DNA from: Natronococcus sp. A-GB1
GTDB taxonomy: Archaea > Halobacteriota > Halobacteria > Halobacteriales > Natrialbaceae
Assembly (NCBI RefSeq): GCF_029688845.1
Contig: NZ_JARUKW010000008.1
Location: 62,001-126,000, forward strand
DNA: 64,000 nucleotides
Direction: 5' to 3'
Shown: positions 42,693 through 45,416 of the stretch, piece by piece
Position numbering within the stretch: position 1 is the stretch's first letter
How the letters are laid out: every line of letters begins with the position of its first letter
Notes under the pieces: generated by a model
The model's input: only the letters and a program-made list of their open reading frames with translations
What the model was told of the DNA's origin: nothing
The model's database searches: none
Made by a program: the position numbers and the translations under genes

Positions 42693-43427
42693 GTGACGGG
42701 GTTCGCAGACGGCACGGCGACGGTGGAGTTCTTCGGCGTTCCCGGGGCGGGAAAGTCGACGATCGCCCGCCGGCTGGCCGAGCGGCTGGCGGCGACGGGA
42801 CGACCGGTCTCGGAGCCGACGTACGAACTCGCCCACCAGGTCTCGAGCGCGCGACGGTACCTCGCCAAGAGCGGGTACGCCGCCACCGGAACGGTTCGAC
42901 ACCCTCGACGGGCGCTCGCGGCCGCTCGAGCGATCGCCGAAAGCGGCCAGCCCTCCTCTCGCACGCTGGTGAAGACGACGTTCAACTGGCTGTACGTGGC
43001 CGGGGTGCTCGAGTCCCGGACGTCAGGGGAACTGCAGGTACTCGACCAGGGACTGGCACAGGCCGCCTGGTCGGTCGGCCTCGGCGCCGAACGGGATCGA
43101 ACGACCTCGCTGTGCGAACTGGCGGTCGACGCGCTCTCGCGGACGGGTCCATCGATGGTCGTGGTCGTCGACCTTGCACCCGAGACGGTCCGCGAACGGC
43201 TCGCGGGTCGCGCGGACGGCGATACGCGGGTCAGTCCGACGGGCGACGGGCACGCCGTAAGCGAGGCGTTCGAACGAAAGGAACGGGTCGAACGATCGAT
43301 CGCGGACGCCATCGCCGGCAATCCGTCGGTCGACCTGGTTCACGTCGACAACGAGTCGAGAACTGATCTCGAGGACGCCGTCGGGGTGGTTCTCGAGCGC
43401 CTCGAGAGCGAACAGCGCCGTAGTTAG
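42693..43427 (+). CDS. P-loop kinase-like protein of the glycan locus (second copy)
   Basis: The 244-residue product starts at GTG 42693. It has Walker A GVPGAGKST near residues 15-23 and a Walker-B-like LQVLDQGLAQ. The layout (P-loop, then D-E/Q-G, then a V-V-D-L-A-P lid) parallels the protein at 32456, although overall sequence identity looks low. Other substrate possibilities include nucleoside or chloramphenicol-type kinases. It ends the GT2-GT4-P-loop run. Confidence 0.7.
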   Translation: MTGFADGTATVEFFGVPGAGKSTIARRLAERLAATGRPVSEPTYELAHQVSSARRYLAKSGYAATGTVRHPRRALAAARAIAESGQPSSRTLVKTTFNWLYVAGVLESRTSGELQVLDQGLAQAAWSVGLGAERDRTTSLCELAVDALSRTGPSMVVVVDLAPETVRERLAGRADGDTRVSPTGDGHAVSEAFERKERVERSIADAIAGNPSVDLVHVDNESRTDLEDAVGVVLERLESEQRRS

Positions 43428-43531
43428 CGGCACGGGTTTCCCGTGCGGAACGCTGTATGAGACTCGCGTTCAGTACAGGACAAGTACTGTTCGGTAGTTT
43501 CGAATAACGGAGAATGAAAAGAACAAACTGA

Positions 43532-43726
43532 TTACAACTTCCCGGCGATTTCCTCGGCAGTAGTCACCAGTCGATAGAGTAAATAAATGACAACCAAACC
43601 GGCGGGAACGGCAAGCGCAGGAATAAGTTCAGGCCATAGAGAGACGATAACAATTCCAGCAAGCAACAAGAGTGTAATTTCGGCCAACGTTCTTTGGCGA
43701 TGACGGTCGGTACGAGAGGAGGCCAT
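43532..43726 (-). CDS. Small two-segment membrane protein
   Basis: This 64-residue protein has two hydrophobic segments (ITLLLLAGIVIVSLW and ALAVPAGLVVIYLLYRLV) and a charged N-terminus. ATG 43726 follows a TTTAAATTAAG box by about 26 bases, so it has its own promoter. Function unknown. Confidence 0.65.
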   Translation of the reverse strand: MASSRTDRHRQRTLAEITLLLLAGIVIVSLWPELIPALAVPAGLVVIYLLYRLVTTAEEIAGKL

Positions 43727-43915
43727 ATTTTTTATTTCAGATTCTTAATTTAAACTCTTTGTGAAAAGGAGGTAGTCTGAGGTGTTGATTGGGACGTCTC
43801 AGCGTTAGATACGTCCCTCTACGTAACGCGTGTTCGTCTCGAGTGCAACTGTACTCAAGAGAGGCAGCCGTTAGGTATAGGTGAAACAGATATCACGGCC
43901 AGCATCCGCGAGGAG

Positions 43916-44143
43916 CGCGGAACGTTCCGTTCCGCGGACCGTTCGCGCGGCTACGCCGCGCGAAGACGAAGCGGGTTCCCCGCCGGAGCGGGCGAAGCCC
44001 GCAGAGGCGGCTTTTTAGCGTAGATTTTTGGAGTCGAGTCGGACTGGCGGTCCCACTGACCATGCGAATAGTGCGAGACCAACGGTCTCGCATGCCGTGT
44101 GAACGGACGCTGCGCGTCCGTGAACAGAGGGCGCGAAGCGCCC
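43916..44143. repeat. Block of seven short-loop hairpins
   Basis: Perfect stems were found at 43916-43936 (CGCGGAAC/GTTCCGCG), 43944-43962 (CGCGCGGC/GCCGCGCG), 43971-43983 (GCGGG/CCCGC), 43988-44002 (GCGGGC/GCCCGC), 44072-44092 (TGCGAGACC/GGTCTCGCA), 44104-44120 (CGGACGC/GCGTCCG) and 44129-44143 (GGGCGC/GCGCCC). Loops are 3 bases (5 in the first). Seven such structures in 228 bases is far above chance. They could be a repetitive palindromic element or a structured RNA. Confidence 0.75.
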
Positions 44144-44188
44144 GTGAGCAGAGAGTGGTGAACGAACAACGCGAGCGAACCCGACGAG

Positions 44189-44193
44189 AAAAA
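44189..44193 (-). terminator. Possible T-tract terminator
   Basis: Five A residues on the plus strand make a five-T tract on the minus strand about 80 bases downstream of the stop at 44274. Archaeal terminators are often short T-tracts. Weak evidence. Confidence 0.25.
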
Positions 44194-44273
44194 GGTACGT
44201 GCGCATATCTGGGTAGTGAACCGTCCCAGATCCGATTCAGAACCAGAACCGGACACAGAGACCGCATGACCAA

Positions 44274-45404
44274 CTATCGGTGGCTGATCTCCCCAAGTAC
44301 GCTCGTGGTCCGCTCGACGGTCGACCGCCAGTCGTACGTCGGTCCGAGCCCGCGGTCGCTTCGCGCACTCGAGCGCGAGAGCTGCGTTTCGATCTCGTTG
44401 GCGAACGCCTCGACGTCACCGACGGGAGCGACCGACCCTCCCTTCCCGATAACCGTAGCGACCTGCTCGAGGTCCGAGCAGACGACGCGAACGCCCGAGG
44501 CCATCGCCTCGAGGACGGTTCTGGGGACGCCTTCCGTCCGGCTCGGGAGGACGAGCACGTCCGCCGACCGGTAGATGCGGGGCATCTCCTCGTAGGGAAG
44601 GTGGCCAAGGAACTCGACGCCGTCGCCCAGCCGGTCACCGGCTCGCGCCTCGAGCCGGTCGCGAAGCGGTCCCTCGCCGCAGAAGTACAGCGTCACGTCT
44701 GGATACGTCTCACGCACACGTTCGACGGCCGCCAGGGCGTCCTGGGGTCGCTTCCCCTCGACCAGTCGGCCGACGAACAACACGATCGGTCCCGACGACT
44801 CGAGCAGGTCGCTCCCGGAGCCGTCCGGCCGAAATCGTTCGGTGTCGATCCCGTTCGGGACGACCTCGATCGGCGTTCGAACGCCGAACTCGCGGAGTTG
44901 GCGCTCGCCGACGTCGGTGTAACAGAACGCGACGTCGGCTTGCTCGAACGTCCACCGACCGACGGTCCGAAGGTACCACTCGAACACCCGTTCGGGTGCG
45001 GTCTGGGAGTACAGCCCGTGGTTTGTGATCGCCAGGGGCGTCCCCCCGAGCCGACGCTTCAGCGCCGCCAGGTTCGTCGAGAAGTACAGATGCGAGTGGG
45101 CGTGCACGACGTCGAACCCGCAGGCGTCGCGCAGGTACCGTGCGACGCCGATCGAGAGGTCGTTGCCCAGCGGGCTGACCGTCGGATCGTATCGAACGAC
45201 GGTGTAGCCGTCTCGCTCCTCGAGGTGGGGGAGTTCGGGGTCGCGTCGCACCGTCAGGACCGTAACGTCGTGGCCCATCGCGGCCTGGTCTCGGCTCATC
45301 GCGTGGACGTGGTAGGCGCCGCCGCCGTTGACGTCGGGATAGCTCTTCTGTGCCACTCGAAGGATCCGCATCGGCCGATCCGCGTCGGGTAGTTCGAGCG
45401 ACAT
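44274..45404 (-). CDS. Glycosyltransferase family 4
   Basis: This protein of about 376 residues (MSLELPDADRPMRILRVAQK onward) is a GT-B enzyme with LFVGRLVEGKRPQDALAAVE and the donor-binding RTEGVPRTVLEAMASGVRVV segment with E-x7-E. ATG 45404 is chosen; GTG 45416 directly after the preceding stop adds four residues. It is the last gene of the sugar-transferase, epimerase, GT4 run on the minus strand. Confidence 0.87.
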   Translation of the reverse strand: MSLELPDADRPMRILRVAQKSYPDVNGGGAYHVHAMSRDQAAMGHDVTVLTVRRDPELPHLEERDGYTVVRYDPTVSPLGNDLSIGVARYLRDACGFDVVHAHSHLYFSTNLAALKRRLGGTPLAITNHGLYSQTAPERVFEWYLRTVGRWTFEQADVAFCYTDVGERQLREFGVRTPIEVVPNGIDTERFRPDGSGSDLLESSGPIVLFVGRLVEGKRPQDALAAVERVRETYPDVTLYFCGEGPLRDRLEARAGDRLGDGVEFLGHLPYEEMPRIYRSADVLVLPSRTEGVPRTVLEAMASGVRVVCSDLEQVATVIGKGGSVAPVGDVEAFANEIETQLSRSSARSDRGLGPTYDWRSTVERTTSVLGEISHR

Positions 45405-45416
45405 TCCTGAATCCAC

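Follow-up and report, generated by a model that had tools for sequence, protein, structure and literature searches.

Hairpins of an intergenic block in a Natronococcus genome as the probable payload of a transposase-less mobile element family of haloarchaea

The seven perfect hairpins at 43916–44143 of the window (the whole 64-kb stretch of Natronococcus sp. A-GB1 DNA that was analysed) are very probably the internal payload of a degenerate copy, at 43418–44279, of a family of non-autonomous, transposase-less haloarchaeal DNA transposons. Elsewhere, the standard ends of this family carry swappable hairpin blocks or genes; we therefore read the hairpins as the cargo of a jumping cassette and not as an isolated oddity. 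The family behaves as a MITE or mobile insertion cassette (MIC) family.

A search for stems of at least 5 bp with loops of 3–5 nt recovers exactly seven non-overlapping perfect hairpins within 43916–44143, so the cluster described in an earlier note on this DNA is real. Their stems are, in order, 9, 10, 5, 6, 9, 8 and 6 bp long and their loops are TTC, TAC, TTC, GAA, AAC, TGC and GAA. The earlier size ranges (stems of 5–9, loops of 3–5) need correction: all seven loops are of 3 nt and one stem reaches 10 bp. An eighth hairpin of the relatives (H5, about 44038–44058) is not among the seven perfect ones of the window. The features of the block are as follows:

43916..43936, no strand: hairpin H1, 9-bp stem, loop TTC; conserved in own-genome copies
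43942..43964, no strand: hairpin H2, 10-bp stem, loop TAC
43971..43983, no strand: hairpin H3, 5-bp stem, loop TTC; 3-bp indel, private to the window copy
43988..44002, no strand: hairpin H4, 6-bp stem, loop GAA; belongs to the type-A inner scaffold
44012..44030, plus strand: conserved AT-rich core TTTTTAGCGTAGATTTTTG, 0 mismatches at contig positions 106012–106030
44038..44058, no strand: hairpin H5, decayed in the window; a perfect 9-bp triloop hairpin in most relatives
44072..44092, no strand: hairpin H6, 9-bp stem, loop AAC
44103..44121, no strand: hairpin H7, 8-bp stem, loop TGC
44129..44143, no strand: hairpin H8, 6-bp stem, loop GAA; TTC in some copies, a loop inversion

When the sequence was shuffled 500 times with its dinucleotides preserved, the count averaged 1.14, was never above 4 and so never came to seven; triloop hairpins with a stem of at least 8 bp number four, against a mean of 0.004 in 500 such shuffles. 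No other 228-bp stretch of the window (step 19) matches 43916–44143 in triloop hairpins of at least 6 bp. The DNA fold of the block has a z of -5.1 and the RNA fold of its minus strand a z of -6.2, and copies of the block are found elsewhere in the same genome. The region is GC-rich, and GC-rich intergenic DNA might give hairpins by chance or composition; against this stand the shuffles and the recurrence of the block in other genomes, on which an artefact of this kind was rejected as the source of the hairpins and is left with a negligible probability. The absence of an overlapping gene is borne out for recognisable genes, the only overlap being with mechanical ORFs, and the placement in a glycan locus is backed by Pfam matches of the neighbouring genes, among them further glycosyltransferase, epimerase, sugar-transferase and flippase genes.

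Concerning dispersal, the window's own genome has two copies some 335 bp long, with identities of 96% and 93%, besides shorter copies (87–94%) and weaker fragments. The copies at 90–96% identity sit in unrelated flanks, and the alignment of copies agrees from GTACAGGTGAA to GAGAAAAAGGTACGT and diverges outside. Matches to the block are found in 38 of 61 genomes (the own genome and 60 relatives), and partial matches in nine plasmid records of Natrinema, Natronococcus and Natrononativus. The AT-rich core has 74 matches across all nine genomes of the genus, about 8 copies per genome, and its reversed control none. The 31-base inverted repeat of the ends is present in 75 of 121 family genomes at up to two mismatches; at up to one mismatch it occurs in 6 of 294 genomes of a phylum-wide sample, all inside the order, and in 0 of 241 outside it. 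Exact matches of the repeat in genome contigs amount to 25 stretches, all haloarchaeal by title. Judging from these searches, the end family appears to be found only in haloarchaea. A phage origin was rejected, as the phage search gave no match to the block and the exact inverted repeat is absent from IMG/VR contigs.

The interior of the hairpin copies is modular. A recognisable inner left end is present in 38 of 46 loci, and the inner lengths of these 38 fall into classes of 131 bp (one locus), 149–151 bp (13), 160–161 bp (7), 207–210 bp (7), 215–219 bp (2), 268–272 bp (5) and 331–334 bp (3). Copy lengths are discrete because the ends are fixed and the hairpin modules between them may be there, missing or replaced by others: the steps match two alternative left modules, an optional left block of two hairpins (about 54 bp) and, on the right, an optional block of either two hairpins (about 58 bp) or four (about 118 bp). 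At one orthologous site (L006 vs L061) flanks and ends are kept and both modules are different. The scaffold is not the sole home of hairpin modules, which are also present in a second repeat that has different ends and in further haloarchaeal families. The second scaffold (L137–L149 and L155; also the G002 cargo in L080) often runs from near GTGCGGTGGCGCGCGCTG to near AATCGGCTGGGGAGGGCGTGG, and shares with the first both hairpin modules and the linkers CCATGCGAA, CCGTGCGAACGG and GTGAGCAGA.

Outside the inner element, the copies share left and right ends of about 65–75 bp, each of which opens with an inverted repeat of about 31 bp, CAGTAG...GGTTTCTTTATTCAG (more fully CAGTAG(A/T)T(A/G)GTA..ACGGTTTCTTTATTCAG), followed by different subterminal motifs on the left and on the right. 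At three or fewer mismatches per end, a limit chosen after seeing the result of a looser pairing, we found 48 facing end pairs, and the 4-bp flanks are identical in 28 of these and match at three of four positions in 12. The consensus of the duplication is NTAN: position 2 is T in all 28, and position 3 is A in 25 of them. The limit was set because the loose first pairing (up to six mismatches) was weak: of its 34 non-nested pairs, 8 had 4/4 flanks (against a mean of 1.2 and at most 7 in shuffles), and the mean flank match lay inside the shuffle range. The set of 48 consists of a first 37 pairs and of pairs from named genomes, the added loci being chosen by repeat match alone and not by their flanks. 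Among the first 37, 21 pairs have identical 4-bp flanks and 10 match at three of four positions; shuffled pairing gave a mean of 1.70 and a maximum of 8 in 20000 trials, and flanks shifted by 1, 2, 3, 4, 8 or 12 bp gave 0 matches. Hairpin copies occur among the duplication-flanked ones (e.g. L049, TTAG/TTAG). Also, two annotated plasmid copies outside the 48-pair count, read by eye, have the duplications CTAT (CP031298) and GTAA (NZ_CP099393). An open frame of at least 120 nt ends at the element edge in 50 of 74 flanks versus 7 of 32 in the control, and insertion at gene 3' ends is not claimed from this, because the inverted repeat itself has stop codons in two frames. Nested inverted-repeat pairs, one element within another, are seen at L157 4279–4960 and L158 573–1250, with a different small membrane-like ORF in each.

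For the window, the end profiles were made from 49 left ends and 34 right ends, none of them from window copies. The left-end profile matches at 43420–43488 on the plus strand (nhmmer, E=4.1e-6) and the right-end profile at 44276–44205 on the minus strand (E=3.4e-5); no further match of the end profiles in the window has an E below 0.9. The two matches face inward, and the element of the window is therefore placed at 43418–44279, a degenerate copy of 862 bp in which a 64-aa ORF accompanies the hairpin array. Its parts outside the array are:

43418..43488, plus strand: left end, degenerate terminal inverted repeat and subterminal motif TGAGACTCGCGTTCAGTACAGG; edge 43418 from end pairing
43532..43726, minus strand: 64-aa ORF, small hydrophobic protein by inspection; possible gene cargo
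43808..43894, plus strand: internal junction of an inner right-end-like GATACGTCCCTCTACGTAACG, a linker and then the inner left end GTTAGGTATAGGTGAAACAGATATCACGG of the hairpin element; read from the sequence against other copies
44144..44204, plus strand: inner right end of the hairpin element, GTGAGCAGAGAGTGG...GACGAGAAAAAGGTACGTG
44205..44279, minus strand: right end, degenerate terminal inverted repeat that overlaps the glycosyltransferase stop codon; edge 44279 from end pairing

The neighbours of the element are a kinase-like AAA gene, which ends at 43427, and, on the other strand, a glycosyltransferase gene with its end at 44274 (ORF 44274–45416). Terminal inverted repeats are thus found at both ends of the window copy, in degenerate form, as well as in the 48 pairs of the family; target duplications of constant length are found at the level of the family and not in the window copy, the flanks of which (AGCG/GTGG) do not match. 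The window copy is old, since about five mismatches are present in each of its outer inverted repeats and no duplication is recognisable. Its nearest orthologue, in genome G005, has better inverted repeats and other modules, and its flanks likewise do not match (TTAG/GTGG). The 64-aa ORF has no Pfam match and no tblastn match in plasmids, and neither the ORF list nor Pfam gives a transposase inside the element. The junction at 43808–43894 resembles a fusion of a right end with a second left end; the left-end profile gives only a weak match over it (43869–43894, E=2.9). Similar right-end/left-end junctions, with a linker like CTCGAGTGCAACTGTACTCAAGAG, recur in L039, L042 and L054, and are perhaps tandem or fused elements.

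The stems and loops bear on a different explanation, which takes up the structured RNA suggested in the earlier note: the hairpins would be selected as RNA, the block being a gene for a structured non-coding RNA (or an RNA terminator or insulator) and its copies forming an RNA gene family. The low RNA folding energy stands in favour of it, as do the T-runs of the core beside a hairpin, the position of the element at the 3' end of the glycosyltransferase gene and the survival of stem pairing through two-sided changes. Across 19 aligned modules, standard pairs fill 95.8% of the pair cells (90.2% in shuffles), and two-sided changes are found at 11 pairs, a number reached in 0 of 500 shuffles (mean 4.9); this includes three rows in which the fourth hairpin is shifted and which count as unpaired at that hairpin. 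Such two-sided changes would fit selection for structure and template-switch repair alike. Against an RNA gene, Rfam gives no match at gathering score in the window and in 12 further loci; the departures from Watson-Crick pairing (8 GT/TG vs 5 AC/CA) show no clear strand bias; many copies are without whole hairpin modules; and the loops vary freely between copies, inversions included, one of them being GAA in some and TTC in others. Also, the copies are bounded by transposon-like ends with target duplications. Of the suggested structured RNA, the low fold energy stands, the Rfam search gave no match and the balance of 8 to 5 points clearly to neither strand; we consider it unlikely.

For the transposon payload that we favour, near-perfect stems and inverted loops may be maintained, at least in part, through DNA hairpin or template-switch processes, and modules would be gained, lost and swapped through recombination between copies.

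A palindromic island of REP/BIME type, in which single palindromes are multiplied by a REP-associated Y1 transposase (RAYT), accounts for the palindromic modules that occur outside the scaffold and in other haloarchaeal families (e.g. H1–H2 in genomes G035 and G041). It agrees less well with modules that lie within a larger scaffold having inverted-repeat ends and 4-bp duplications. Such ends with 4-bp duplications are not expected of Y1 transposition. The core, with about 8 copies per genome, is also well apart from the copy numbers of REPs, often above 100 per genome, a comparison that holds for the window scaffold, modules elsewhere not being counted. Among the three suggestions of the earlier note the REP-like island nevertheless comes nearest: an element rich in hairpins, dispersed and modular, is what was found, but one that differs from a bacterial-type REP in its length, terminal inverted repeats, duplications and number of core copies. 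We regard a REP/BIME origin proper as improbable. Still less probable is a PATE, that is a core-deleted IS200/IS605-type element as in Haloquadratum; the block shares with PATEs a non-coding, palindrome-rich and dispersed haloarchaeal nature, but PATEs are described as having neither terminal inverted repeats nor target duplications (PMC3119063), the family has both, and on these two traits membership was rejected.

The transposon reading extends beyond hairpins, as the same ends enclose either hairpin modules or one to a few ordinary genes, including hydrolases, toxin-antitoxin, SMR, Usp and lipoprotein genes. By Pfam, a first set of cargoes comprises alpha/beta hydrolases, a Cys/Met PLP enzyme, a BAT/HTH_10 regulator, Usp and a maltose acetyltransferase-like protein; a second set comprises a class I tRNA synthetase, a KAP NTPase, a PIN toxin with a MazE-like antitoxin, a small multidrug resistance protein, a response regulator, an Asp/Glu racemase and an F420 oxidoreductase. 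Single cassettes with their cargo are those at L201 5335–6068 (PIN and MazE-like pair) and L210 3541–4285 (MazE-like and a 166-aa ORF), both with perfect target duplications, and the 3.9-kb cassette at L198 3630–7564, which has GTAA duplications and a gene for a 1154-aa KAP-family NTPase.

Exchange is seen at fixed sites. At the C3 site (L080–L082, L002), four genomes of one genus have at the same position, with the same ends, three different cargoes or none: the own genome has hairpins between the ends (right end weak, E=0.083), G002 the second hairpin family and G005 a 133-aa ORF with a sub-threshold DUF7344 match, and in G003 no ends were found. At the C12 site only the inverted repeats are left in G003, and nothing in G006. 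The recombination site of the earlier note stays a tentative reading of the block, with an exchange of inner content seen at orthologous positions. A broader proposal would be a class-wide haloarchaeal gene-capture system, in which one end set takes up any gene or hairpin module and exchanges such cargo in situ at fixed chromosomal sites, often gene 3' ends; the hairpin arrays would then be the exchange modules of an archaeal counterpart of integron cassettes and not passive junk. By analogy this can be entertained, and we think it doubtful.

Concerning the mobilising enzyme, movement would be by cut-and-paste through a DDE transposase supplied in trans, with an ISH3-family relative as the best candidate. 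Neither the window element nor the inspected cargo ORFs of the pairs gave a cognate transposase within elements with these ends. The sole transposase inside a cassette (L179, about 841–1770) is flanked by GTTTAGACGC..GCGTCTAAAC; it is presumably IS5/ISH1-like, appears to belong to an inserted IS with other ends, and was rejected as mobiliser as its gene sits between these other repeats. Canonical ISH3 was rejected for its repeat, CGGTAGTTCCC, long ISH3-like ORFs (about 550–610 aa) for the lack of a flanking inverted repeat of cassette type, and the DDE_Tnp_1 loci of the own genome as cassette ends were found at none of them. A subgroup of ISH3-related ISs has the 9-nt tip CAGTAGTTG in common with the cassettes, has ends of the form CAGTAGTTGC(C/T)GA and shows 4/4 identical 4-bp duplications in 5 of 9 copies with paired ends; its targets read T..A, not NTAN, and the rest of its inverted repeat also differs. 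Its transposase is present in 34 of 121 family genomes and absent from the own genome at E <= 1e-30. These enzymes are the best lead, as a tentative candidate to which we give somewhat less than an even chance.

If the transposon reading is true, much unexplained hairpin-rich intergenic DNA and many isolated small genes in haloarchaea would be the work of one mobile-end family, which would spread genes without carrying a transposase and would offer a testable mechanism for the sequence differences that related haloarchaea show at identical positions. Genes for toxin-antitoxin systems, SMR transporters and regulators would be marked as mobile cargo, and the modules would be a natural set of DNA triloop hairpins with inverting loops, useful for studying palindrome maintenance.

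A search of freely available papers by title and abstract opening gave no description of these ends or hairpin modules; an earlier description of either may exist. Among known systems, mobile insertion cassettes or transporter ISs (PMC3129680) are bounded by inverted repeats, lack a transposase, bring along unrelated passenger genes and are thought to be moved in trans; all these traits are common to the window family. The family differs in that a single end set, found across many genera of one archaeal class, bounds numerous unrelated cargoes as well as hairpin-bearing non-coding copies, and in that no parent IS was identified. The MITEs of Haloquadratum, as far as described in the same part of PMC3119063 as the PATEs, are short and non-coding, with inverted repeats and target duplications, and need a transposase in trans, as in our family; in the latter, by contrast, the interior is built from triloop hairpin modules that can be exchanged and that fall into discrete length classes, and the same ends also occur with genes between them. 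PATEs and SMRs of Haloquadratum are likewise transposase-free, palindrome-rich and dispersed in haloarchaea, with PATEs there lacking inverted repeats and duplications and SMRs lacking duplications (PMC3119063). Deletion-coupled insertions and SwitchRepeats, in that same text, place different sequences at an identical chromosomal position in relatives, as the window family does; no conserved sequence is reported there for such junctions (PMC3119063), whereas the exchanged cargo of the family lies between recognisable ends. ISH3-family ISs (NCBIfam NF033541) include the related subgroup with tip CAGTAGTTG and 4-bp duplications in common with the family, but the remainder of the subgroup's repeat is TGCCGA or TGCTGA instead of TGGTAATACGGTTTC, its target consensus differs and these elements encode a transposase. 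Bacterial REP/BIME islands resemble the family in their clustered intergenic palindromes and mosaic arrangement (archaeal passages of PMC12306157), whereas the window element is longer and composite, has inverted-repeat ends and belongs to a scaffold of low copy number.
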